Of a DNA stretch of 36,087 nucleotides, positions 100 through 19,374 are shown piece by piece (position 1 is the first letter of the stretch; every line of letters starts with the position of its first letter). This DNA comes from Chitinivibrionales bacterium. GTDB lineage: Bacteria; Fibrobacterota; Chitinivibrionia; Chitinivibrionales; WJKA01. The notes under the pieces are model-generated. The model was not told where the DNA came from. It worked only from the letters and a program-made list of their open reading frames with translations, and did no database searches. The stretch lies in contig WJLZ01000203.1 in NCBI GenBank assembly GCA_014728215.1, positions 1 to 36,087 on the forward strand, in the 5' to 3' direction. The translations under genes and the position numbers were made by a program.

Positions 100-150
100 T
101 ACGCAATCGCATGCCAAATCAACCGTTTAGGAATAATAAGCATACACCTC

Positions 151-168
151 TGTTCACCGATTGAACAA
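151..168. promoter_or_regulatory. Putative second operator for the EPS MarR regulator
   Basis: TGTTCA (151-156), five bases, then TGAACA (162-167) and a further A. This is the same half-site and the same 5-base spacer as the perfect inverted repeat that abuts the MarR start codon at 9620-9638; only the outermost T of one arm is lost. A clear promoter was not identified next to it, although a weak TTGACT...TACATA pair lies upstream on the minus strand. Assignment rests on pattern identity only. Confidence 0.45.
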
Positions 169-565: not shown

Positions 566-692
566 GGGGAACCACAGATAACTCAGATGTGCACAGATAT
601 AATGAGAGAAATGTCGAATAGTGTACGATCTCTTCACCCAAATTTTCAGATCCGCGATAATCCGTCGCATCCGCGTCATCCGCGTTCTATCT
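566..692. repeat. Composite dispersed repeat (R1), long copy
   Basis: On the plus strand a head with repeated CACAGAT/CAGAT words (566-600) is followed by a tail built from CATCCGCGT/CATCCGCGTT words (643-692). The tail is nearly identical to 7945-7999, and its end matches 3111-3134. The left end of the Wzz-type gene, including its stop codon TAG at 689-687, lies inside the repeat. The repeat reads antisense to the gene. Confidence 0.7.
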
Positions 693-1676
693 CCTCCCCA
701 GTCGCAACTCGCGCCGAATGCCCTCGATCAGCTTTTTGTCTTCTTCGGTTTTCTCCCCCGAAACAAAGGCATGTTTGAACACCACAAAGAGCACGGTCAG
801 AAAAAAGAGTCCAAAAGCAAAAACAAGAGGATAGAGTTTTTTTTCCTTATGACTCACGCTCGGAAAGGGAGGATCGATAATCTGGAACGCCTCCTTACTC
901 ACCACCATCGCCTTTTCGTACTCCTGGGCGACCAACTCCTGGATTTTTGCGCGCAAGAGGGGGTCCGATACAACCGTGAGCTGCTTTTCGAGGTACTTGA
1001 TATTTTCATTGGCGTCTTCCTGGGTCGATTCGCGAATATAGAGGTCGAGATATTCGAGGCCGTTTTCGAGCAAGGTATGACTGAATGAAGAATCTTTGCT
1101 GTTTACGCTTATTTCCATTGTATTCGATTTCGTGACTTCTCTTTCTAAAAATTCTCCATTGACTACCCCTGCAATTTTCATGGGCTCGGGTTTGAGAGAA
1201 TCGGCAACCCATTTCTTTTCATCTTCGTTATAATTTTCCTTATAATACTTGGGTGCAACAAGTTCATATACCGATGGTATAAGATTGTATTTTTCCAGAA
1301 GCTCGGCACCAAACTTCCTGCTGTCAAGCACAATATCAATTTTATCGAGGCTGGCATTGCCGCCGATATTGAGCTGGCTGGCTACCAGGCCTCCCAGGGC
1401 GCCGAACCCTGAAACCGAGGGCATTTTCCGGGAATCGTTCTCCTTGGGTGCGATCACCGCAGTGGCCGTATAGGTCGGGCCTTTGATACGAGCAGCCACA
1501 TAGCCCAGCACCAAACCCAGAATTGTCACGCCAATAATCAGCCATTTGTTTTTGACAAGCTCGTAGACATACTCCAGAAGATTGATTTCATCGGGATCGG
1601 TGTAGATCTGCGGTTGCGGCTGAATCGGCTGCTGCATGGCTGGGCCGCCGGGTTGAAAATTTGTATCATTGGTCAT
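687..1676 (-). CDS. Wzz-type polysaccharide chain-length determinant protein
   Basis: Inner-membrane co-polymerase expected to control the chain length of an exported polysaccharide. The 329-residue protein has the Wzz layout: a Gln/Pro-rich cytoplasmic start, a first membrane span at about 45-63, a long periplasmic region that is helical around 205-265, a Pro-containing segment (DPPFPSV, about 268-274) and a second span at about 281-301. The charged C-terminus lacks a tyrosine-kinase domain. The ATG at 1676 is preceded by AAGGA at good spacing. It closes the visible EPS gene series on the minus strand. The last codons and the stop merge with a dispersed repeat, so the C-terminal few residues may be repeat-derived. 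Confidence 0.88.
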   Translation of the reverse strand: MTNDTNFQPGGPAMQQPIQPQPQIYTDPDEINLLEYVYELVKNKWLIIGVTILGLVLGYVAARIKGPTYTATAVIAPKENDSRKMPSVSGFGALGGLVASQLNIGGNASLDKIDIVLDSRKFGAELLEKYNLIPSVYELVAPKYYKENYNEDEKKWVADSLKPEPMKIAGVVNGEFLEREVTKSNTMEISVNSKDSSFSHTLLENGLEYLDLYIRESTQEDANENIKYLEKQLTVVSDPLLRAKIQELVAQEYEKAMVVSKEAFQIIDPPFPSVSHKEKKLYPLVFAFGLFFLTVLFVVFKHAFVSGEKTEEDKKLIEGIRRELRLGRR

Positions 1677-3070: not shown

Positions 3071-3134
3071 TAAACCACAATTTCCGTTCTTATCTGCGCA
3101 CATCGGCAAAATCAGCGTCATCCGCGTTCTATCC
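3071..3134. repeat. Dispersed repeat R1, short divergent copy
   Basis: AAACCACA near 3072 and the tail CGTCATCCGCGTTCTATCC (3116-3134) match the two ends of the 566-692 element, with a diverged middle. As at 687, the stop codon of the neighbouring minus-strand gene (TAG, 3131-3129) lies inside the repeat end. Confidence 0.6.
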
Positions 3135-4259
3135 TCGTATCGCTTTTATAATCCGCTGCTGGTCCTCTTTTTCCAGGTACGGATGAAAGGGCACGCTGAA
3201 AATCCGGTCCGCAATCGATTCCGATACCGGAAAATCGCCTTTTGTATGCCCCAGCAATGAAAAGGCGTCCTGCAGGTGAAGCGGTTTGGGGTAATAAATT
3301 GCTGCCGGGATATTTGCAGCCTTGAGTTTCCCGATAATTTCATCACGATTATCGCTCACAATCGCGTACTGTGCCCATGCCGACATGCTATGTTCGGGCA
3401 CGGTCTGCAAGGTAAAACCGCCGCTCAATGCTTCCCCATACCGATGTGCGACACCCTGGCGGTTCTCCAGCTCCTTGTCGAACAGGTCGAGCTTGCAGAG
3501 CAGCACCGCGGCCTGCATGGTGTCCATTCTTCCGTTGAGACCGATCCGCACATTATCGTACTTATTGCTTCCCTGACCGTGGATCCTGATCGAGGTAATT
3601 TTTTCGCTGAGCGCATCATCATTTAAGAATACGGCGCCACCGTCACCATAACACCCCAGGGGTTTGGCAGGGAAAAAACTCGTTGCCGCCATGTCTCCCA
3701 GGCTGCAGGCTCTTTTGTTTTTATAGCGCGCGCCGAAACTCTGGCAGGCGTCTTCCAGAACAAAAAGGTTGTTTTCCCGGGCGACTTTTCCTATGGTATC
3801 GTACTCGGCGGGACATCCGAATATATCGACCGGGATTACGCCCCGTGGTTTCAGGCCCTCAGGCGCGCCCGGCGAAGACTTTTTACCGCTCGTTACATCA
3901 GCGATCGCCTGTTGCAGTTTGCCGGCATCGATATTGAATGTCTCCGGATTGATATCAACAAATACCGGGGTCGCTCCCAGAAGGGAAATAACCTCGGCGG
4001 TGGCAATGAACGTAAAGGGCGTGGTAAAAACAGCATCACCCGGACCGATATCATAGGCCATCAGTGCTAAAAGAAGCGCATCGGTGCCGCTGGAACAGCA
4101 CACACAATGCTTTACCCCGCAGTAGTTCGCAAGTTTTTCTTCAAGCTCGAAAATTTCGGGCCCCATGATATATTTGCCGTGGGACAGAACCGTTTCAATC
4201 CGCTTTTTTAGCGAGGTTTCAATTAATGCCTGCTGGGCCTTGAGATCAATGAATTGCAT
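3129..4259 (-). CDS. DegT/DnrJ/EryC1-family sugar aminotransferase, WbpE-like
   Basis: PLP-dependent aminotransferase acting on a nucleotide-linked keto-sugar. The sequence strongly resembles WbpE, which makes UDP-2-acetamido-3-amino-glucuronate from the 3-keto sugar: FIDLKAQQA at the start, SSGTDALLLAL at 56-66, VLEDACQSFGA around 167-177, and FFPAKPLGCYGDGG with the PLP lysine at 199. The length (376 residues) fits, with a Lys/Pro/Gly-rich insert at about 121-140 that WbpE lacks. The ATG at 4259 is chosen because family similarity starts there; it overlaps the preceding small gene by 14 bases. The dehydrogenase and acetyltransferase of the Wbp pathway are not in the window, so the actual substrate is uncertain. 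The stop codon lies in a dispersed repeat. Confidence 0.88.
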   Translation of the reverse strand: MQFIDLKAQQALIETSLKKRIETVLSHGKYIMGPEIFELEEKLANYCGVKHCVCCSSGTDALLLALMAYDIGPGDAVFTTPFTFIATAEVISLLGATPVFVDINPETFNIDAGKLQQAIADVTSGKKSSPGAPEGLKPRGVIPVDIFGCPAEYDTIGKVARENNLFVLEDACQSFGARYKNKRACSLGDMAATSFFPAKPLGCYGDGGAVFLNDDALSEKITSIRIHGQGSNKYDNVRIGLNGRMDTMQAAVLLCKLDLFDKELENRQGVAHRYGEALSGGFTLQTVPEHSMSAWAQYAIVSDNRDEIIGKLKAANIPAAIYYPKPLHLQDAFSLLGHTKGDFPVSESIADRIFSVPFHPYLEKEDQQRIIKAIRG

Positions 4260-4446
4260 TTCCCGGCTTATCCTCAATGTTAATTCGTGTTTCGAACCAG
4301 AATTGTGCGGCATTGGAGACCCATTCCAACCGCTGCTCGGCAGTCATGTGCTGAAATGCAGTATGGCCGTCAAAATCCGATTCCGACAGTGTCTCTATTT
4401 TCTTGCGGAAACTGATGGTTCCCTTTTCAAATTCTTCTCTCTTCAT
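4246..4446 (-). CDS. Small partner protein of the upstream nucleotidyltransferase
   Basis: A 66-residue protein of unknown function. It begins with the ATGA overlap shared with the nucleotidyltransferase stop and ends 14 bases inside the aminotransferase, so it is translationally linked on both sides. It has a basic/acidic helical first half and then the stretch MTAEQRLEWVSNAAQF. Short proteins with an EQRL-W-type helix often accompany DUF6036/AbiEii-like nucleotidyltransferases; that resemblance is from memory and not proof. It may be the second component of a toxin-antitoxin-like pair. Confidence 0.6.
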   Translation of the reverse strand: MKREEFEKGTISFRKKIETLSESDFDGHTAFQHMTAEQRLEWVSNAAQFWFETRINIEDKPGNAIH

Positions 4447-4943
4447 AGCAGCTTTTTCAGCGTGTCGATATCGATTTTATCTTTATCCCGTGGCGGCTTT
4501 ATTTTCTCTTTTATTTCAATGAGTTTTGATTTCGAAATGACCCTGATTGTATCTCCCCTGATTGTAATGCATTCACTTGAAGGGAGTAAATTTTCATACA
4601 GATGCTCTCTGGTCAGCATAATATCGATATGCCTGAATGGCTTTTCGTTATCGATCAAGCTGAAAACCACCGCATTTTTCTCCTTGATCATTATCGCTAC
4701 CTTTTCAGGATCGCTGATACTGAGCAAGGGAACCGGAACGCGGGGGACCAGACCCAGCTTTTTGACCACCCGGTCGAGGTGCTCGATATTTTTTTTGTCC
4801 ATTTTGACCGACAGATCAAGATCGAGGGTCATCCGTTCCACTCCATGAAGGACCGCCGCAACACCACCGCATACAATAAATTCGACCTTCGCCCTCGCCA
4901 GTTCATGGAGCATTTCCAGAAGATGACTTTGCTGATCACCCAT
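4443..4943 (-). CDS. Nucleotidyltransferase-fold protein (DUF6036/AbiEii-like)
   Basis: A 166-residue nucleotidyltransferase-fold protein. The signature GG (26-27) followed by DLDL (41-44) fits the polymerase-beta-like fold, and a later KLIEIKEKIKPPRDKDKID segment is typical of family members that pair with a small protein. The ATG at 4943 (MGDQQSHLLE) is preferred over 4964 because it gives an 8-base overlap with the epimerase and removes residues without similarity. Overlaps of 8 and 4 bases embed it in the sugar operon. The role is unknown: a toxin-antitoxin module or a regulator of the sugar enzymes are both possible. Confidence 0.7.
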   Translation of the reverse strand: MGDQQSHLLEMLHELARAKVEFIVCGGVAAVLHGVERMTLDLDLSVKMDKKNIEHLDRVVKKLGLVPRVPVPLLSISDPEKVAIMIKEKNAVVFSLIDNEKPFRHIDIMLTREHLYENLLPSSECITIRGDTIRVISKSKLIEIKEKIKPPRDKDKIDIDTLKKLL

Positions 4944-5892
4944 GATAGCTCTTATACCAGGCAATAAATTTCGGCACGCCTTCGCTTATTGGCGTGGTGG
5001 GTTCAAAGCCCAGCATCTCCTTTGCATGGCGAATATTGGCATAGGTAGCCTTGACATCACCCATCTGCATGGGTAAAAGCTCTTTGTGTGCCTCACACCC
5101 CAGACATTTTTCTATAAGCGTAATTAAATCGACAAGGTTCTCGGAGCGGTTATTTCCCAGATTAAAGACCTCACACTGCGCCAGATCAGGAGCGTCGAGT
5201 GATGCAACCACTCCCTGTACAATATCATCGATATAGGTAAAATCCCGCTGCATATCGCCTTTGTTAAACACCTTGATCGGCTCCCCGGCCAGGATCGCCT
5301 TGGTAAAGAGCCACATGGCCATGTCGGGCCGACCCCAGGGACCGTAAACCGTGAAAAACCGGTGCCCGATTGTCTGAAAACCGTACAGATGTGAATAACA
5401 ATGGGCCATCAGCTCATTGGCTTTCTTGCTGGCCGCATATAAACTCACCGGCGTATCCACCCGGTCCTGCTCCGAAAAGGGAAGCTTGGTGTTACCGCCA
5501 TACACACTCGACGACGACGCGTAGACCAGGCGCTTGATTCCGGTATGACGGCACCCTTCTAATACATTTAAAAATCCCGAAATATTCGAGTCAATATAGG
5601 CATGGGGATGCTCAAGCGAGTAGCGCACACCGGCCTGGGCGCCAAGGTTGCAGACAACCTCGTAGGGACCCGACTCAAAAGCCTTTTTCATACCCTCAGC
5701 ATCATGAAGATCACATCGGATAACCCGGTATCCGGGATATTTCTCCAAGATCGCATTCCGGTCCTCCTTGATTTTCACATCGTAGTAGGGATTGAAATTG
5801 TCGAGTCCGGTAACGCTGTCGCCTCTATCAAGCAGCTTCCGTGCGACATGAAACCCGATAAAGCCGGCTGTGCCGGTGAGGAGAATGTTCAT
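4936..5892 (-). CDS. NAD-dependent nucleotide-sugar epimerase, UDP-glucuronate 4-epimerase-like
   Basis: Extended short-chain dehydrogenase expected to interconvert UDP-glucuronate and UDP-galacturonate. The NAD-binding motif GTAGFIG lies at 7-13, the SSS triad serine region at 126-129, and the catalytic YAASK at 152-156. NPYYDVKIKEDR and HRFFTVYGPWGRPDMA are typical of the UDP-glucuronate 4-epimerase branch. The length, 318 residues, is a little short of the usual 330-340. It follows galU by 64 bases and overlaps the nucleotidyltransferase gene. With the glucuronokinase-like kinase and GalU two genes upstream it completes a plausible uronic-acid precursor route. Confidence 0.88.
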   Translation of the reverse strand: MNILLTGTAGFIGFHVARKLLDRGDSVTGLDNFNPYYDVKIKEDRNAILEKYPGYRVIRCDLHDAEGMKKAFESGPYEVVCNLGAQAGVRYSLEHPHAYIDSNISGFLNVLEGCRHTGIKRLVYASSSSVYGGNTKLPFSEQDRVDTPVSLYAASKKANELMAHCYSHLYGFQTIGHRFFTVYGPWGRPDMAMWLFTKAILAGEPIKVFNKGDMQRDFTYIDDIVQGVVASLDAPDLAQCEVFNLGNNRSENLVDLITLIEKCLGCEAHKELLPMQMGDVKATYANIRHAKEMLGFEPTTPISEGVPKFIAWYKSYHG

Positions 5893-5956
5893 GATACTAA
5901 TTCCCTGTTTTTGACATTTGACCTTTGAATGTTATGCGGTGAGAGTTTGAAATGCA

Positions 5957-6838
5957 TTAGCATTCATTCGCCAACTCTTTTATCCACCTTCGCAACTCAT
6001 CGCCCATATCATCCCGTTTCAGTCCGAAAAGCACGCTTGCCTTGATAAATTCGGCTTTGTTGCCGATATCGTAGCGCTTGCCTTCGAGGTGTTTGCCGTA
6101 AATAGCCCGGTCGTTGAGCATGAGCTTGAGCGCATCGGTGATCTGGATCTCTTCGTTGATTCCCGGGGGTGTCGATTCAAGGTAGGTGAAAATGTCGGGC
6201 GAAAGTACGTATCTGCTGGCGACCACCATATTTGAGGGGGCGTCTTCGGGCTTGGGTTTTTCTACAAAATTGTTGATCAGATACACCCGGTCATCGATAC
6301 ACTTGCCGTCGATGACACCATATCTGCTTACCCGCTCCCGGGGAACTTCTTCCACAGCAATGACACTCTCGTGATAGCGGTCGTAGATAGTCATTAACTG
6401 TTTAATCGCCGGTGTTGTTTGGGTTTCGATAACCGTATCGCCCAAGAGCACGGCAAAGGGGTTATTGCCGACGTGGCATTTTGCATGGGCGATGGCATCA
6501 CCAAGCCCTTTCAATTCCTTCTGCCATACAAAATGAATATTTGCCAGATCGGTTATTCGACGGACTGCATCGAGTTCGGCCTGCTTTCCCTTTTCACTCA
6601 GGACATTTTCCAGCTCGAAATTGCGGTCGAAATGCTCCTCGATCGCCCGTTTACCTTTTCCGATAATCATCAGGATGTCGGTTATTCCCGAAGCAACGGC
6701 TTCTTCGACAACATACTGGATTGTCGGCGTGTCGACAATAGGAAGCATCTCTTTGGGCTGGGATTTTGTTGCCGGCAAAAATCGTGTTCCCAGCCCCGCG
6801 GCCGGTATAATCGCTTTAGTAACCGCAGATTTACTCAT
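5957..6838 (-). CDS. galU: UTP-glucose-1-phosphate uridylyltransferase (GalU)
   Basis: Makes UDP-glucose from UTP and glucose-1-phosphate; related enzymes also accept other sugar-1-phosphates. At 293 residues it is canonical in length and motif: GLGTRFLPATKSQPKEMLP from residue 15 (nucleotide binding), IQYVVEEA, LLGDTVI with the metal aspartate, NFVEKPKPEDAPSN and GNKAEFIKA. The ATG at 6838 overlaps the kinase stop as ATGA, so the two proteins are made together. That coupling raises the possibility that this copy serves glucuronate-1-phosphate rather than, or as well as, glucose-1-phosphate; the sequence itself does not decide this. Confidence 0.95.
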   Translation of the reverse strand: MSKSAVTKAIIPAAGLGTRFLPATKSQPKEMLPIVDTPTIQYVVEEAVASGITDILMIIGKGKRAIEEHFDRNFELENVLSEKGKQAELDAVRRITDLANIHFVWQKELKGLGDAIAHAKCHVGNNPFAVLLGDTVIETQTTPAIKQLMTIYDRYHESVIAVEEVPRERVSRYGVIDGKCIDDRVYLINNFVEKPKPEDAPSNMVVASRYVLSPDIFTYLESTPPGINEEIQITDALKLMLNDRAIYGKHLEGKRYDIGNKAEFIKASVLFGLKRDDMGDELRRWIKELANEC

Positions 6839-7845
6839 TCGTCACTTTCCGGTGAAATGTCGGGCTTGATAACCTCAACTCCCGTGGGTGTCAGGGCTTC
6901 ACAGATCGATTGAAACATAGTTTCATCGGTATAGGTCCCGATTATTGCGCCGCCGGAGCCGGTGAACTTTGCGCTTGCTCCAACGCCCCGGGCAGCTTCA
7001 ACCATGGCGATATTATCTTTACTGATACGGCAGAGTTTTCTACGTATATCAAAATTTTCGTTGAGAAGATCATGGATTCGATCATTCTTTTTCGCAACCA
7101 GCGAATCATGCACCTTATCGGTAAGCTCACCCCATTTGCCCATGGCTTCGATAACCTCAGACTCGCCCCGGTTAAACCTCTCCCGAAGGTTGTTATGAAA
7201 AATATCGGAGCCCTCCGAGAGGTCGGCCCGATAGGCGATATATAACGATGGAAACTGGTCCCGGGACAGCATTTCATAGATGCCATAGCCCTTTTCATCC
7301 ATATGCTTCTGATTGAAATCCATATAGACCGGGCCCTGATAAACCTGGGCCACCCGGTCCTGAAGACCTGCGGATATGCCGAGCTGTTCCTTTTCAACCG
7401 ATAAAATAAGATTAGCAAGGACAGGTTTGACAATTTTCACCCCATAATAGGCCATGAGTGCCCGAAAACAGGCAGTAATGATCGCACTCGAGCCCGCAAG
7501 TCCCACAAGATGGGGGATATTCGATGAATAACGAATGGTGAAGTTATCGTTATGAAGAACAATTCCTTTTTCGGAGCAATAATCGTGAAATACCTTTATG
7601 GCCGCTTTCAAAAGACGGATCCCGCCGTAATACCCGTGATGGTTGACATCGAGCACAAGATCCTGAATGCTTTGAAATACCGAATGGTCACGCACGCTCG
7701 GAAGGATCTCCAACTCCGGTGATTCGTACAGCACCACCCCGGCATAAAAATTCCTGAATGTAAAAGCGATCGTCTTCCCGAAATAACCGTCGGAGGGATT
7801 ACCGATCAGCGCAGCGCGGGGAAAAGCTTGAGTTCGAATAATCAT
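6835..7845 (-). CDS. GHMP-family sugar kinase closely resembling plant glucuronokinase
   Basis: GHMP-fold kinase, 336 residues. Its motifs track plant glucuronokinase (D-glucuronate to glucuronate-1-phosphate) along the whole length: LIGNPSDGYFGKTI at 13-26, GYYGGIRLL at 71-79, the ATP loop GLAGSSAI at 115-122, the stretch GISAGLQDRVAQVYQGPVYM at 156-175, NFDIRRK at 264-270 and KFTGSGGA at 293-300. Generic GHMP kinases share only the fold. The 4-base overlap with galU supports sequential action: kinase product plus UTP gives a UDP-sugar. There is no Shine-Dalgarno; an 8-base tandem repeat lies 9 bases upstream of the ATG. The alternative is a related kinase for another uronic acid or sugar. 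Confidence 0.82.
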   Translation of the reverse strand: MIIRTQAFPRAALIGNPSDGYFGKTIAFTFRNFYAGVVLYESPELEILPSVRDHSVFQSIQDLVLDVNHHGYYGGIRLLKAAIKVFHDYCSEKGIVLHNDNFTIRYSSNIPHLVGLAGSSAIITACFRALMAYYGVKIVKPVLANLILSVEKEQLGISAGLQDRVAQVYQGPVYMDFNQKHMDEKGYGIYEMLSRDQFPSLYIAYRADLSEGSDIFHNNLRERFNRGESEVIEAMGKWGELTDKVHDSLVAKKNDRIHDLLNENFDIRRKLCRISKDNIAMVEAARGVGASAKFTGSGGAIIGTYTDETMFQSICEALTPTGVEVIKPDISPESDE

Positions 7846-7854
7846 AGGAAGATT

Positions 7855-7890
7855 TGGAGTGATGGAGTATTGGAGCTATGGAGTAATGGG
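7855..7890. repeat. Period-8 tandem array
   Basis: Four and a half units of TGGAGTNN (TGGAGTGA, TGGAGTAT, TGGAGCTA, TGGAGTAA, TGGG) in perfect phase. The same array occurs at 1779-1798. It lies directly upstream of the glucuronokinase-like gene in the position where a ribosome-binding site would be expected. Confidence 0.75.
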
Positions 7891-7944
7891 AACATGCCGG
7901 GCATAGTATCTTTTACTCAACTTCTGTTTTCTTTTTCATGTCTA

Positions 7945-7999
7945 TTTTTTCTCAAATCCGCGAAAATCCGTCGCATCCGCGTTATCCGCGTTCTATCTC
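7945..7999. repeat. Dispersed repeat R1, tail copy
   Basis: Built from ATCCGCG words, ending in CGCATCCGCGTTATCCGCG and TTCTATC. It matches 643-692 at almost every position. It starts 7 bases downstream of the gmd stop codon, in the same orientation relative to the gene as the copies at the Wzz-type and aminotransferase genes. Confidence 0.7.
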
Positions 8000-8005
8000 T
8001 TACTC

Positions 8006-9043
8006 TTATCTCGATTTGACCGTTTCCCGGTCGGCTTTTACCATTATCTCAACCAGCTGATCAAAGGTCACGGTCGGTTTCCATCCAAGTTCCTGGTTTG
8101 CCTTTGTTGGATTCCCACAGAGCTGTTCGACTTCGGTAGGACGATAGTATTTCGGATCGACTTCCACGACCGTTTTTCCGCTCTTTTTATCAACACCTCT
8201 CTCATTCTCATTTTCGCCCTGCCATTCGATTTCCATATCGAGGCATGCAAAGCTCTTTTCCACAAACTCACGGACCGTATGCATTTCACCGGTGGCGATA
8301 ACGTAATCATCGGGCGTCTCTTTTTGCAGCATGAGCCACATGGCATTCACATAATCGGGTGCGTATCCCCAGTCCCGGCGGGCACTGAGATTTCCCAGCC
8401 GGATACAGTCCTTGGTCCCGGCTTGGACTCCGGTAACGCCCAGTGTAATTTTTCGGGTGACAAAATTCTCTCCCCGTCGGGGGGACTCGTGGTTAAAAAG
8501 GATGCCGTTGCTTGCATGAAGATTATAGGCTTCACGGTAGTTTTTGACAATCCAGAACGCATACAGTTTGGCTACCCCATAGGGCGAACGGGGATAGAAC
8601 GGTGTTGTTTCGCTCTGGGGAACTTCCTGCACTTTTCCGTAGAGTTCTGATGTCGACGCCTGATAGAATTTGCATTTCAATCCGGTCTCCTTGATGGCGT
8701 CGAGCAGGCGAAGGGTTCCCAGGGCATCGACCTCGGCGGTATACTCGGGCACCTCGAAGGAGACTTTCACATGAGACTGAGCGGCAAGATTATAGATCTC
8801 ATCGGGTTGAATTTTCTCCACCAACCGGTTGAGATTACTGCTGTCGGAGACATCGCCGTAGTAAAGGTAAAAATTTTCCTTCTGCTTGCCTCGCTGATGA
8901 ATATGTTCGATCCGCTCCCGGTTAAAACTGCTCGCCCGACGGATCATCCCGTGGACTTCATACCCTTTATCGAGCAACAGCTCGGTAAGATAAGAACCAT
9001 CCTGACCGGAAACACCGGTAATGAAAGCTTTTTTTGGAGACAT
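8006..9043 (-). CDS. gmd: GDP-mannose 4,6-dehydratase
   Basis: Converts GDP-mannose to GDP-4-keto-6-deoxy-mannose, the precursor of GDP-fucose, GDP-rhamnose or GDP-perosamine. The 345 residues match the family throughout: [15 protein letters not shown] near the N-terminus (NADP binding), [13 protein letters not shown], the Thr/Ser-Glu-Leu-Tyr block [11 protein letters not shown], catalytic YGVAK in [12 protein letters not shown], and [16 protein letters not shown]. The ATG at 9043 has AAGGGA upstream. A promoter candidate with a palindrome between -35 and -10 lies at 9082-9111. The next enzyme (GDP-fucose synthase or reductase) is not in the window. Confidence 0.96.
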
Positions 9044-9180: not shown

Positions 9181-9205
9181 CGCACCTTTCCCCCATCAGC
9201 GGTAC
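9181..9205. repeat. Dispersed 25-base repeat, copy 2
   Basis: Matches 75-99 with a single difference (A for G at 9198). It lies between the MarR gene and gmd. Minus-strand TTACCC and GGGTAA segments flank it and could pair, a feature not conserved at copy 1. Confidence 0.6.
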
Positions 9206-9277: not shown

Positions 9278-9619
9278 TTATGGATGTTTACTCAAAGGCG
9301 ATATGTCACCGACCGCTTTTTTCAATTCGGTGATCTCCTGCTGCAGCTTGTCGAATTCATCGAGACGATTGTTGAGATATCCCTGGGTAATCACGATCTT
9401 CTCCTTAACCCCCTTGGGCGTTAGAAGATACTGCCACCGGATTTGCCCCGGCTGATTTTTCAGTTTCTTCGCCTTGATAATACCCTTCTCAACAAGGCCG
9501 GCAAGCACGTAATTCGCCTTTCCCAGGCTGACATTCAGCTTCTTTGCAAGACCGCGCTGGGTCTGACAGGGCTCTTTTTCGATTTCTCGAATGATCTTGT
9601 ATTCGATATTTGGTTTCAT
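9278..9619 (-). CDS. MarR family EPS-associated transcriptional regulator
   Basis: Small winged-helix DNA-binding protein of the kind found next to exopolysaccharide genes. The wHTH covers about residues 5-75: YKIIREIEKEPCQTQRGLAK, then LNVSLGKANYVLAGLVEKG as recognition helix and wing region. It is followed by a C-terminal helix (RLDEFDKLQQEITELKKAV) suited to dimerisation. The ATG at 9619 is chosen over 9661: a good promoter sits just upstream, and the similarity starts at MKPNIEYKII. Predicted transcription starts only about 15 bases before the ATG, and no Shine-Dalgarno is visible. A perfect inverted repeat touches the start codon, suggesting autorepression. Confidence 0.85.
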   Translation of the reverse strand: MKPNIEYKIIREIEKEPCQTQRGLAKKLNVSLGKANYVLAGLVEKGIIKAKKLKNQPGQIRWQYLLTPKGVKEKIVITQGYLNNRLDEFDKLQQEITELKKAVGDISPLSKHP

Positions 9620-9669
9620 TTGTTCAACTTGTGAACAAAAATTATACTTCGGGAACCCCATCGATGCAA
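9620..9669 (-). promoter_or_regulatory. MarR-gene promoter with start-site operator
   Basis: On the minus strand TTGCAT (9669-9664), a 17-base spacer and a perfect TATAAT (9646-9641). Immediately downstream is TTGTTCA-N5-TGAACAA (9638-9620), a perfect 7+5+7 inverted repeat ending at the base before the ATG. The predicted start (about 9634) falls inside the repeat, a classical repressor position. The same repeat layout recurs at 151-168. Confidence 0.72.
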
Positions 9670-15121: not shown

Positions 15122-15607
15122 TTACCTTCCTTCTCTCCAGGAATCGGAAGCCTGAAGGTTTCCATCGAGGTAGGTCCAGGTGATCTTCTGGTAACGCATG
15201 CTCACCTTTTCGAGATGAAGATAGCGTTCCTTTGTGGGGTCTTTAACATTGTACATGATCGGCTGGACCGAACAAATCTTCACATCTTCTAAAAGATGGT
15301 TGAAATATTCGGTTTCGGTGCCTGTATCATCAATACGGAACCACTTCAGCTCGACCTGCGTGAAAGTCTGGCCCTCACACACTGCTTTGTAAAGGTACGG
15401 CGATGAAGCATCATAGGCTTTCACAAGCGTAATGGCTTCATGCTTTCTGGTACCTGTCAGCTTACCGGTATCGGGATCGGTGGGGATCCGCACTTCATGA
15501 TGAAACTCATGAACTTCGATACTTCCTTCACGGCCAGCGACATCCACAGAACCTTTAACTTCACTGCCGTTTTCATCTGTCATCCACATATAGGCCGGTA
15601 TTGGCAT
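15122..15607 (-). CDS. hcp: Type VI secretion tube protein Hcp
   Basis: Subunit of the hexameric inner tube that the T6SS sheath ejects. At 161 residues it matches Hcp1-family proteins in length and layout: MPIPAYMWM at the start, GREGSIEVHEFHHEV, the loop GKLTGTRKHEAITLVKAYD, KWFRID and LHLEKVSMRYQKITW near the end. The ATG at 15607 has a strong AAAGGAG. It has its own promoter region with a CRP/FNR-type palindrome and its own terminator, so it can be expressed far above tssABC, as a tube protein must be. About 190 bases separate it from tssC. Confidence 0.94.
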   Translation of the reverse strand: MPIPAYMWMTDENGSEVKGSVDVAGREGSIEVHEFHHEVRIPTDPDTGKLTGTRKHEAITLVKAYDASSPYLYKAVCEGQTFTQVELKWFRIDDTGTETEYFNHLLEDVKICSVQPIMYNVKDPTKERYLHLEKVSMRYQKITWTYLDGNLQASDSWREGR

Positions 15608-15655
15608 GACCTACTCCTTTCAAAGAAGGGTGAATTGTTTTTTGTTTACGACTTA

Positions 15656-15699
15656 AATATATTATTCCAGCACATGCAAAGTCTGTGATTCAAATCACA
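15656..15699 (-). promoter_or_regulatory. hcp promoter with CRP/FNR-type site
   Basis: TGTGATTTGAATCACA (15699-15684, minus strand) is a perfect palindrome that matches the CRP consensus TGTGA-N6-TCACA in all ten fixed bases; it also has the TGAT-N4-ATCA core shared with FNR-type sites. A -10 candidate TATATT lies at 15661-15656 with no good -35. If transcription starts near 15649, the site centres about 42 bases upstream, the class II activator position. Confidence 0.65.
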
Positions 15700-15800
15700 A
15701 ACCATGCACTTTTTTAACAGTTCGATTTTCGGCAGCCCATACCGGACCATCCTCAAATATGCGCAGCTCACGAAAAGTTGACACATAGAACACACTGTCT

Positions 15801-17321
15801 CTACTTACTTTTCGGCATCTGCGATACCAGCGACAGATTGATATCGATACCCTCGATCTGGAAGTGCGGCATGACCGCAAGGCCAACCGTGAAAAATCCA
15901 GGATTATCCTCGATCTCTTTCACTTCAACTTCAGCGGCTTTCAGCGGATGGGTAGCGATCAGCTCGGGACCGGGATCGTTCATTTCGGTTACCAGTCCGT
16001 TAATCCATTCCTGCAATTCATCCTGCAGTACTTTCCGGCTCTTGGTGGATCCGATATTTTCACGCTGTATTACCTTCAGGTAATGGGCGATACGGGAAAC
16101 AAGGAAAATATAGGGAAGCCGCGAATTAATCCGCATATTTGCCGTGATTGCAGGATCATCATACTCCTGTGGTTTCTGAGTCGAATTAGCAGAAAAGAAA
16201 CAGGCGTAGTTTCTGTTTTTATAGAATGAAAGCGGAATGAATCCTTCCTGGGCAAATTCAAATTCCCGCGTTTCAGGAATGAGAATCTCGGTAGGAATTT
16301 TCATCTGTTTGCCTTTACCGACATCGTACAGGTGAATCGGCAGATCCTCGACCTTTCCGCCGGCTTCCGGGCCTCTGATCTGCACACACCATCCGTTGTC
16401 AACAAATGAGCGCACCATGTTGGCTGCGAAAGCAAAGGATGCATTCCCCCAGAGATATTTTTCGTGGTCGTCGCCTTTCACACCCTCTTCATAATTGAAT
16501 TCCTTCACCGGCTGCGTTTCGGAACCGTAGGGCAGACGGAGTGCAAACCGGGGAAGCACCAGGCCGACATATCGAGAATCCTCGGACTCCCTGAAACTGT
16601 TCCATTTCAGAAATTCGGAACGCTCCATGTAGTTATGAAGGTCTTCGATTTTCGGAAGGTCGTGGACATTATCCTTCCCAAAAAATTTCGGTGTTGCCGA
16701 ACCGATAAAGGGGCAATGGCATGATGATGAAACCTTTGCGATTTCCTGCAGCAGACCGACATCGGCCGCGCCGCTGTTAAAATCGTAATTGGAGACGATT
16801 GCGCCGTAGGGTTCACCGCCGGGTGTGTCATACTCATCGGTATAGACATGTTTGTAAAGCCCCGACTGGATTGTTTCGGGAGCATCTTCGAAATCTTCCG
16901 CCAATTCATCCTTGGATGCATCCAGAAGGTCGATCTTGACATTTTTCCGGAAATCGGTGCGGTCGACCAGAAACTTCAGACTCCGCCATGCCGATTCCAT
17001 TTTCTGGAATTTCTCATTATGTATGATTTCATCCAGCTGGTGTGACAGTTTTTTGTCGATTTCGGCGATATGCTGATCGAGCAGCACCTTATCGATTTTA
17101 TCGACGGTCTGTTCAGATTCGAGAACGCTGCTGACAAAGAAGGCCAGGGCCGCACCGATTCGTTCATTGGCATTACTGTCGGCCAGTGCCTCGGCATTCT
17201 TATAATTGACAACATCCACCGCTGATTCGGGGACCGATAAATTCATTGTCTGATAAATATATTCCAGGCTGGTTGCATTTTCGGCCTGTGCTTCCGCCTG
17301 TTTTTCTTCTTGATTTGCCAT
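15801..17321 (-). CDS. tssC: Type VI secretion contractile sheath large subunit TssC
   Basis: Large subunit (VipB type) of the contractile sheath that wraps the Hcp tube. At 506 residues the length is typical. Family features include ALAFFVSSVLESEQTVDKID near 40-60, WRSLKFLVDRTDFRKNVKID, the conserved LVLPRFALRLPYG, an NASFAFAANMVRSF stretch and the C-terminal SRLPYIFLVSRIAHYLKVIQ. The ATG at 17321 has GAGGAG at good spacing. It follows tssB by 50 bases that include a perfect 16-base palindrome. No terminator is seen between it and hcp, so read-through is possible. Confidence 0.95.
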   Translation of the reverse strand: MANQEEKQAEAQAENATSLEYIYQTMNLSVPESAVDVVNYKNAEALADSNANERIGAALAFFVSSVLESEQTVDKIDKVLLDQHIAEIDKKLSHQLDEIIHNEKFQKMESAWRSLKFLVDRTDFRKNVKIDLLDASKDELAEDFEDAPETIQSGLYKHVYTDEYDTPGGEPYGAIVSNYDFNSGAADVGLLQEIAKVSSSCHCPFIGSATPKFFGKDNVHDLPKIEDLHNYMERSEFLKWNSFRESEDSRYVGLVLPRFALRLPYGSETQPVKEFNYEEGVKGDDHEKYLWGNASFAFAANMVRSFVDNGWCVQIRGPEAGGKVEDLPIHLYDVGKGKQMKIPTEILIPETREFEFAQEGFIPLSFYKNRNYACFFSANSTQKPQEYDDPAITANMRINSRLPYIFLVSRIAHYLKVIQRENIGSTKSRKVLQDELQEWINGLVTEMNDPGPELIATHPLKAAEVEVKEIEDNPGFFTVGLAVMPHFQIEGIDINLSLVSQMPKSK

Positions 17322-17352
17322 AATCGTTACTCCTCGGTTTGTATGACAATAG

Positions 17353-17368
17353 GGTATGCCGGCATACC
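17353..17368. repeat. Perfect 16-base palindrome between tssB and tssC
   Basis: GGTATGCC followed directly by GGCATACC. In RNA it would form a short hairpin between the two sheath genes, upstream of the tssC Shine-Dalgarno. The theme resembles the hairpin at 379-400. It could affect mRNA processing or bind a protein. Confidence 0.55.
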
Positions 17369-17371
17369 GGC

Positions 17372-17893
17372 TTACTTGCTCTCTTCCTTGCTTTCTTCTT
17401 CAGTTTCTTCCGGAACAATTTTCTTTAATTCTTCCTGCAACGATTTCGCCGTATCAGGATCTTTGATGATATCTTCAAGACGTTTTCTGAATTCTCTGTT
17501 GTCTAAAAGATTCGATTTCAGATCCTTGATCAGGTTCCGGGCTGCAAGAAGCTTGCTGAGGGCGGGGACCTCCTTGGCGATATTTTCGGGCTTAAAAGAA
17601 TCCATGTTTTTAATATCAAGATCGACATTGATATTGCCCTCTCCGGTCAGTTTGTTTTCGACCGAATATTTCAGGTTGAGGTCCATGCTTTCCATAACCT
17701 GGGTGAAATTGTTCTTGTTGATATTGATCTTTTCCCGATCGACCACCCGTTCATCATGCTCCTCGCCTGAAAACTCTCCCATGACAAGCATCTTCAGAGG
17801 CAATTCAACTTTCTTCTTTGCATCACCCTTACCCACATCAAGTTTAAGATTGATCCGTGCAGGGGGGATTTCATTTTGAAAACTTCCGGCCAT
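17372..17893 (-). CDS. tssB: Type VI secretion contractile sheath small subunit TssB
   Basis: Small sheath subunit (VipA type), partner of TssC. The 173 residues show the family start (ARINLKLDVGKGDAKKKVEL), KMLVMGEFSG, the INKNNFTQVMESMDLNLKYSV block, and the acidic helical C-terminus (LARNLIKDLKSNLLDNREFR-like helix). It ends in an unusually Glu-rich tail (EETEEESKEESK). The ATG at 17893 is 23 bases after tssA. Gene order A-B-C on one strand indicates one transcript. Confidence 0.95.
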   Translation of the reverse strand: MAGSFQNEIPPARINLKLDVGKGDAKKKVELPLKMLVMGEFSGEEHDERVVDREKININKNNFTQVMESMDLNLKYSVENKLTGEGNINVDLDIKNMDSFKPENIAKEVPALSKLLAARNLIKDLKSNLLDNREFRKRLEDIIKDPDTAKSLQEELKKIVPEETEEESKEESK

Positions 17894-17916
17894 AATAACC
17901 TGCCTTTCCGTTTAAT

Positions 17917-19374
17917 TTATTTGTTTAATGTAAATGCCTTAGTCGGGTTTATCTGACTTATCTTTTTTACCGTATCATTGAGTTTTGTTGTCATCTCCAC
18001 CTGTTGATTCTGCGGCTTGTTTGCCCTTCCAACCTTAAGCGCCTGTACCAAAACCGCCCATGCTTCCACCGCCAGATCGGGATTCCACAAATGGAGATGG
18101 TAGGTGTCGATTTTTTCGTCAAGGGCCTCCAGAATCGAAACGGCGATATCGGGTTGTTTACCCTTGAGGAGGAGTTGCCCCATCAAAATAGACCGGTTGA
18201 AATTATCTTCTTCGCACGAAGAACTCCTGATTCCATTCTGCAGCAGCTCCAGCGCCTTATCGACTTTTCCGGTGGCTGCCAGTGACTGGGCTTCACGTTT
18301 TTCCTTTTCAAGGATATCTTCATCATCGTCTTCATCGCCGTCATTATCGCCCCCCTTGCCTCCCGAGAGTGCAGACATGACTTCGGATTTTATCCAGCTC
18401 TTTGTCGTATCATCGCAAAACGGTGTCCCATCGGTAAAAGCCAACTCCACCAGCGTGGGTATCCGTTTAAGGAGCACGGCGGTTTCAATAAGAATGATAT
18501 CCCGTATTGCTGCATTGCTTTCACCAAGCTCCTTGCAGGCGGTTGCGGAATATCGTTGCAGATCGAGCCAGAGGTGGTTTCCGGCGCCGGTAAACGTTTC
18601 TTCGGACTTTTCAAAGAGTGTTTTCCAGTCTTTCTGACCAATCAATCCTTCAAGAAAGGCTTTCTGCTGGGCATTGGGTCCTTGGAGCTGCGTTTTGCCG
18701 TCGGATGCCGGAGGTGCATTCTCCATCAGATCCCACCTGAGTGAACGCATAAGACGGTATCCCATTATTTTTACGGGCTCTTTTTCAATAAGAAACCGGG
18801 CAAGTTTTTTTCCTTCAGTCTGGGCCTGCTTTGGCGTCTCATAGGCCTGAGCTTGATTCTGGGCAGGTTGTTGCTGTGACTGCTCGGCTTTGGGCTTCGG
18901 CTTACAAGCCTTTTCCCAGGACTGGGCTTTTTTAAAGAGATTCGATGGAAAGGGAGAACCATCGGGAAATTTTGATTCCAGAATACTTTTCAGTTTTGTA
19001 AGCGATTCAACAAGCCGCGTTATGTGTTCATAGTCGCTTTCGGTGGGCTTTTTCTGATTACAGAATTCGGTATATCGCTCTTCTGAAATCCATTTAATTG
19101 CCAGCCCTTTGGCCCGCGGGCGAGCAGGGAAACAATTATCATAATCCTGTTCTGTAAGTGATGTCATGCCCTCAAACAGATCTGCAAATGCTTCCCACTG
19201 TTCGTCACGAAGCAACGCAAAGCTTAAAAAGGCCATCACCCGCAGATCCTTTGATTTTTCGGCCAGGATTTTCCTGCTGTTATTTATGATCAATTCATAA
19301 TCGATCCCTCCAAGTTTCCCTATTTCACTCTTGAGGGCATCGAAATCGGTATCGTAATTGACATTCTCTCCCAT
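17917..19374 (-). CDS. tssA: Type VI secretion protein TssA (ImpA N-terminal family)
   Basis: TssA-type protein that caps or starts sheath assembly at the baseplate. The N-terminal ImpA domain covers about 10-130: DYELIINNSRKILAEKSKDL, then FADLFEGMTSLTEQDYDNCF, which resembles the family's signature region where a subunit count is followed by a C-F/W-P motif. A Gln/Ala-rich linker (about 155-190) leads to a VasJ-like helical C-terminal domain (about 190-485) with an acidic insert (DNDGDEDDDEDILEKEK). The ATG at 19374 has GGAG about 8 bases upstream. It heads the tssABC unit. Confidence 0.85.
   Translation of the reverse strand: MGENVNYDTDFDALKSEIGKLGGIDYELIINNSRKILAEKSKDLRVMAFLSFALLRDEQWEAFADLFEGMTSLTEQDYDNCFPARPRAKGLAIKWISEERYTEFCNQKKPTESDYEHITRLVESLTKLKSILESKFPDGSPFPSNLFKKAQSWEKACKPKPKAEQSQQQPAQNQAQAYETPKQAQTEGKKLARFLIEKEPVKIMGYRLMRSLRWDLMENAPPASDGKTQLQGPNAQQKAFLEGLIGQKDWKTLFEKSEETFTGAGNHLWLDLQRYSATACKELGESNAAIRDIILIETAVLLKRIPTLVELAFTDGTPFCDDTTKSWIKSEVMSALSGGKGGDNDGDEDDDEDILEKEKREAQSLAATGKVDKALELLQNGIRSSSCEEDNFNRSILMGQLLLKGKQPDIAVSILEALDEKIDTYHLHLWNPDLAVEAWAVLVQALKVGRANKPQNQQVEMTTKLNDTVKKISQINPTKAFTLNK

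Follow-up and report, generated by a model that had tools for sequence, protein, structure and literature searches.

A conserved palindrome over the predicted start of a MarR_EPS gene as the probable operator of its family, and its pairing with leader elements

The closest described systems are MarR of E. coli, in which a winged helix goes together with an inverted repeat (marO) that overlaps the regulator's own promoter and which has a separate N-terminal dimerization helix, and, for the leader region, RfaH, which reads the ops element, with the NusG paralogues UpxY and LoaP beside it. For LoaP, the use of a UNCG-type RNA hairpin is described in one report (PMC12691694). The regulator studied here is assigned to TIGR04176 (MarR_EPS in NCBIfam), where membership is decided by a curated cut-off and the gene lies in an EPS or nucleotide-sugar locus. 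The NCBIfam line of this family gives no operator, and as far as our searches show, the family is named by its neighbourhood. We found neither a report of the operator proposed below, judging by titles and the beginnings of abstracts, nor a functional study of the family in the open-access literature. PMC10599003 names the gene among salt-induced genes, and in PMC1569441 "MarR" is only an author name.

The window analyzed, 36,087 bases long, is the whole of contig C203 in the 5.0-Mb draft genome of a Chitinivibrionales bacterium. It carries the following features:

9669-9664, minus strand: -35 element TTGCAT, with a 17-bp spacer before the -10 element
9646-9641, minus strand: -10 element TATAAT; the sigma70-like promoter spans 9641-9669
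9620-9638, minus strand: putative operator palindrome TTGTTCA-CAAGT-TGAACAA, TTGTTCACAAGTTGAACAA, conserved upstream of homologues
9622-9636, minus strand: exact core GTTCA-N5-TGAAC within the 19-mer palindrome
9619-9617, minus strand: ATG start codon of MarR_EPS, directly after the palindrome
9278-9619, minus strand: MarR_EPS regulator gene, 113 aa, winged helix with a long C-terminal helix
9182-9205, minus strand: leader element GTACCGCTGATGGGGGAAAGGTGC between MarR_EPS and gmd, a candidate recruitment site for a NusG paralogue
8006-9043, minus strand: gmd, downstream of the regulator
6835-7845, minus strand: GHMP-type kinase gene, downstream of the regulator
5957-6838, minus strand: galU, downstream of the regulator
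4936-5892, minus strand: epimerase gene, downstream of the regulator
3129-4313, minus strand: DegT aminotransferase gene; the block of EPS and nucleotide-sugar genes spans 3129-9043
687-1676, minus strand: Wzz-type chain-length determinant gene, further downstream
150-168, minus strand: second operator-like site TTGTTCAATCGGTGAACAG, with the exact core and one mismatch in the palindrome, reading off the contig end
76-99, minus strand: another leader-element copy, GTACCGCCGATGGGGGAAAGGTGC, 52 nt downstream of the core at 150-168

Because gmd and the kinase, galU, epimerase, DegT and Wzz-type genes lie downstream of the regulator, we regard the locus as an EPS or nucleotide-sugar operon. With a GT2 gene upstream, the regulator sits in an EPS-biosynthesis locus of the kind that TIGR04176 describes. 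Elsewhere in the window (15122-19374, minus strand) there are type VI secretion genes for Hcp, VipB, VipA and a VasJ/ImpA-like protein.

The regulator belongs to TIGR04176 with 107.9 bits against a curated cut-off of 88, aligned over profile positions 4-103 of 105, and matches HTH_24 and MarR in Pfam. A search of the genome at E <= 0.01 returned its own gene and no second match, and the nearest named relative (L036, 85% identical) comes from a Chitinivibrionales MAG. The predicted structure (mean pLDDT 86.6; helices 5-15, 21-27, 32-44 and 68-106, strands 48-53 and 61-66) combines a winged helix with a single long helix at the C-terminus (residues 68-106). No useful relative came from the phmmer search of the PDB: its best match, 3jqh_A (E 6e-08), covers residues 89-111 only, with no passing stretch, and the winged-helix entries among the matches listed had E 0.17 or worse. 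Foldseek and VIA-align grouped the model with MarR- and PadR-type regulators, placing it in the MarR winged-helix fold. The first VIA-align row was E. coli MarR (3vod_A, Z 11.7, rmsd 2.2 Å over 78 residues); many rows are tied with it to within 1, PadR-type chains among them, and PadR/LmrR chains of comparable size reach Z 10-11. The 113-aa model differs from E. coli MarR in having the one long helix at its C-terminus and in lacking a separate N-terminal dimerization helix; a dimer would presumably be formed through the long helix. The segment SLGK.NY, common to all five aligned proteins, one of which is gammaproteobacterial, lies in the helix that is expected to read DNA.

The sequence-only reading had described a near-ideal promoter, a perfect inverted repeat over the predicted transcription start and an ATG directly behind it, and each of these features was recovered at the place it gave, on the minus strand. 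The two 7-bp arms at 9620-9638 pair without a mismatch. Relatives most often carry 8-bp arms, TTGTTCAA-N3-TTGAACAA, the eighth pair of which is broken in the window copy. Transcription is predicted, as estimated from the -10 element, to start at about 9632 on the minus strand. In a close relative (L019), the promoter reads TTGCAT-N17-TATACT and stands at the same distance from the core (4 bp) as in the window. The inverted repeat thus overlaps the regulator's own promoter and predicted start, as expected of an autoregulatory operator and as in marO, while its arms, GTTCA-N5-TGAAC, differ from those of marO.

Further claims of that reading concerned the leader, which was said to be short and to lack a Shine-Dalgarno sequence, so that the operator would also form the initiation region. 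The leader is indeed short (about 13 nt) and has no such word, but this carries little weight because it is not distinctive: 8 of 16 other window starts checked, themselves uncurated, also lack any Shine-Dalgarno word tried. That the operator ends at the ATG holds in the window but is not general, since the operator lies 82-260 bp from the conserved start in 7 of 13 phylum genes. An upstream ATG at 9661, which would open a 127-aa ORF through the operator, was rejected because most phylum homologues begin at or just before M-IEYK.

Base composition predicts 0.0002 copies of the 19-mer for the window and 0.03 for the genome, and one and two were observed, respectively. The exact 15-bp core has four copies in the 5.0-Mb genome (at 9622 and 152 of the window contig, at C117:174365 and at C215:36155), which is about as composition predicts (5.3). 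The C117 copy, the second perfect 19-mer, is part of a 12-bp terminator-like hairpin and was set aside as such; the C215 core sits inside an apparent short-chain dehydrogenase frame and was left out of the operator count. This leaves both plausible operators on the EPS contig, and the probability that two of the four exact cores fall on this 36-kb contig is about 0.0004. Since the core of 150-168 stands near the contig end and is followed by a leader element, another EPS unit probably begins just beyond the end.

The terminator-like stem on C117 favours an explanation in which the palindrome works as an RNA hairpin, for termination, stability or start-codon masking, and not as DNA. The window RNA can fold (-6.3 kcal/mol, z -1.7), but the fold is weak. 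As 14 of 200 shuffles fold equally well, a terminator or hairpin at this site was rejected. Part of the core may also be untranscribed because it overlaps the predicted start. An Rfam search of the window returned one match, with an E of 0.59, under its gathering score. Across homologues (see below), the same letters and spacing recur rather than merely complementary arms, although this evidence is only partly independent because the sites were picked by their letters. We consider a role as RNA very unlikely.

The sequence-only reading had proposed that homologues be scanned for the same repeat. The family search covered 167 genomes of the window's phylum, 15 of which had a match over the cut-off (16 genes), and 369 genomes of the class to which a gammaproteobacterial genome (G200) belongs, 42 of which had one. 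All 58 over-cut-off genes and 22 of 37 sub-cutoff relatives, 80 genes in all, were scanned over the upstream 400 bp (250 for L121), with gene starts taken from the profile matches. Four of the 15 sub-cutoff matches left out were near contig ends or had a stop, and the others were lower-scoring; in 20 of the 22 included, the open frame spans at least 199 residues. The exact core was found within 400 bp upstream of 49 of the 58 MarR_EPS genes (13 of 16 in the phylum and 36 of 42 in the gamma-class) and of 18 of the 22 sub-cutoff relatives, that is, 67 of 80. Dinucleotide shuffles (300 rounds) gave a mean of 0.04 of 80 genes with the core and a maximum of 1. Together with the expected number in the window given above, this comparison refutes a chance palindrome, for which the AT-rich setting speaks and nothing further, and we take its probability to be negligible.

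The spacing is as constant as the arms: in the first 46 genes, N5 was the only spacing found (N0-4 and N6-12 gave zero), and two reversed-word controls reached at most 1 gene at any spacing. The 67 sites form 60 clusters by flanking sequence and have 59 different spacers, indicating that the arms were held while their surroundings diverged. Thirteen of the 80 genes have no exact core within 400 bp upstream. For nine of them (L012, L015, L041, L058, L137, L141, L148, L150 and L008) it lies further up, at about 1.6 kb in the case of L008, where it is visible in L050; L121 and L078 have a core with one mismatch, and in L125 and L126 no core occurred anywhere in the DNA fetched around the gene. 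The rest of the same loci, 188,151 bases, held 15 cores, 14 of which stand upstream of the regulator. The operator is unusually well conserved for a putative autoregulatory operator of MarR type.

We then scored pairs of -35 and -10 elements upstream of the sites, using weights that were not trained on these genomes. The mean promoter-like score was 9.3, 9.2 and 9.6 for phylum, gamma-class and sub-cutoff sites, whereas random anchors gave 3.2, 2.1 and 1.9. At 77%, 83% and 89% of the sites (controls 44%, 38% and 38%), the end of the best -10 lay 0-10 bp ahead of the core, the exceptions being 3 of 13, 6 of 36 and 2 of 18; in 13 of 18 sub-cutoff relatives the -10 abuts the core. Because the -10-like pair mostly ends right before the core, the operator usually covers the predicted start point, which is the position that repression at the start point would require. 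This placement argues against MarR_EPS binding the site as an activator or nucleoid-like organizer instead of a repressor. Weak, below-cut-off NCBIfam matches to Sta1 and Lrs14, and to Sso10a for a longer relative, would be in keeping with such a role; the core, however, follows a -10-like element in most genes, a place at which a bound protein normally prevents initiation, and we think an activator or organizer improbable.

The reading that we prefer, and hold with considerable confidence, is that the palindrome is the conserved operator of the family, used by MarR_EPS for autorepression and for the control of EPS genes. A MarR_EPS dimer would read GTTCA-N5-TGAAC, the half-site centres of which are 10 bp apart, or one helical turn. 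Lying over the predicted +1 and directly after the -10 element, this dimer would block RNA polymerase, and MarR_EPS would keep down its own expression and that of the cotranscribed EPS genes until some signal releases the repressor. Directly observed are the sequence, the family membership, the constancy of the site and its spacing, the promoter-like position and the linkage. We infer the binding by this protein, the dimer, the repression, the transcript start, the signal and the recruitment to the leader element; conservation by itself shows neither which protein binds nor the sign of control. The site could instead serve another DNA-binding EPS regulator, with MarR_EPS merely one of its targets, as the core also occurs before non-MarR units, such as a NusG-paralogue gene in G026, and before units whose next gene is not MarR_EPS (L097 and L103). 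Yet it is this single gene family that the site accompanies, in both of the distant groups and among the sub-cutoff relatives, and the two plausible operators among the four cores of the 5-Mb genome are both on the window contig, so that we regard another regulator as unlikely.

The observation of the sequence-only reading was right and its interpretation is well supported. Its prediction of simple autorepression is probably too narrow, because the core is also found ahead of other EPS units and of some rfaH-type genes, and an ops or ops-like element frequently follows it. At other promoters, as at 150-168 here, this operator would tie further EPS units to the same switch, and in some relatives an rfaH or NusG-paralogue gene would be under this switch as well.

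The window holds both layouts in which the operator and the leader element occur: 150-168 followed by 99-76, and 9620-9638 followed by MarR_EPS and then 9205-9182. The distance of 52 nt from core to element in the first layout is also that at C20:6902 of G002, and in the phylum the element lies 44-67 nt after the core in seven cases and just after the MarR_EPS gene in six. The element differs from ops: the sense strand of 9182-9205, which reads GTACCGCTGATGGGGGAAAGGTGC, has no GGCGGTAGCGTG word, and a scan of the window for ops with up to 1 mismatch found none. No description of its word, GTACCGCY-N4-GGGGRAAGGTGC, was met in the literature, which was searched by names. Allowing up to 2 mismatches, the word occurs in 11 of 15 MarR_EPS-positive genomes versus 2 of 18 other genomes scanned (Fisher P 0.0004). 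The 33 matches fall in 13 of the 33 genomes; a reversed-pattern control also gave 7 matches in 4 genomes (G007, G016, G027 and G030), so single matches with two mismatches may be due to chance. Elsewhere in the genome, the element stands before genes that appear from their translations to be cysD-like and Gfo/Idh-like, and in G002 (L175, 2821-4380) gene pairs that look small nucleotidyltransferase-like and HEPN-like from their translations lie near it.

The genome has its own NusG paralogue at C165:1996-2541, which matches both UpxY (62.6 bits, cut-off 100) and LoaP (34.9 bits, cut-off 125) and falls below both cut-offs; as it misses the UpxY cut-off, we call it UpxY-like only. Across 40 genomes of the order, the 11 strongest matches to it come exclusively from genomes with the element; the weaker ones are in element-negative genomes or in G039, which was not scanned for the element. 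Counting any paralogue at E <= 1e-8, 11 of 13 element-positive and 9 of 19 element-negative genomes have one (Fisher P 0.06); at a cut of 184 bits, chosen afterwards, the numbers are 11 of 13 and 0 of 19. No paralogue was found in the element-positive genomes G001 (77% complete) and G003. The element also lies downstream of the paralogue gene, by 287 bp in G002 and 1.6 kb in G004. The NusG-paralogue tree does not show the element-positive rows to form a single clade among the paralogues. It supports two element-negative clades and places the element-positive G022 with the element-negative G028. Overall, the leader element tends to travel with the UpxY-like NusG paralogue.

In the gamma-class, the arrangement resembles that of RfaH and ops. 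Among MarR_EPS loci with a long leader, in which over 60 bp separate the start from the nearest core (within 700 bp), 12 of 15 have GGCGGTA between the core and the start, giving the order operator, ops word and gene. In 11 of these 12 it reads GGCGGTAGCGT, which we take to be the ops word. GGCGGTA occurs in 0 of 23 short-leader loci, where there is less room, and no antisense copy lies between core and start in gamma-class MarR_EPS loci. Among sub-cutoff relatives with a long leader, the ops word was found in 1 of 7. The taxonomic order of the window differs from these loci in its leader word, and the paralogue of the window's own genome scores best as UpxY-like, below the cut-off.

Of the 64 gamma-class loci, 19 contain an RfaH-like gene in the DNA fetched (10 of 42 MarR_EPS loci and 9 of 22 sub-cutoff loci, one being the query's own locus). 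In L137, L141, L148 and L150, the core stands some 600-650 bp upstream, ahead of an rfaH-like gene that precedes the regulator. In L142, an rfaH gene (303-803) is followed directly by the operator and then by a 207-aa relative (983-1606), a TIGR04176-like winged helix of 65.5 bits (below the cut-off) with extra C-terminal residues, and the start codon inside the second operator arm suggests a near-leaderless mRNA. In L054 (G026 C52, 10292-11198), one operator stands about 12 bp before the matched start of a NusG-paralogue gene and a second stands before MarR_EPS, and the regulator and the antiterminator gene are thus predicted to be under the same site.

These extra operators and linked rfaH or NusG-paralogue genes suggest a joint opening of EPS units followed by antitermination: release of MarR_EPS would open a set of EPS units at once, and the antiterminator would then carry the polymerase through them. 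We hold it to be an evenly balanced question whether EPS genes of both the phylum and the Gammaproteobacteria are governed by such a two-step switch, in which the MarR_EPS operator would gate initiation and the leader element would recruit a NusG paralogue that helps polymerase along the long operon, with ops and RfaH in the Gammaproteobacteria and GTACCGCY-N4-GGGGRAAGGTGC and the UpxY-like protein in Chitinivibrionales-type bacteria. This coupling of operator and leader element is the more novel part of our findings. The recurrent pairing of the operator with an ops or ops-like element suggests that the control of EPS initiation and antitermination form one module. The leader element offers a testable recruitment site for a group of NusG paralogues. 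A concrete and nearly invariant operator would make the targets of MarR_EPS predictable in many genomes, and the ligand or signal could be searched for with a simple reporter.
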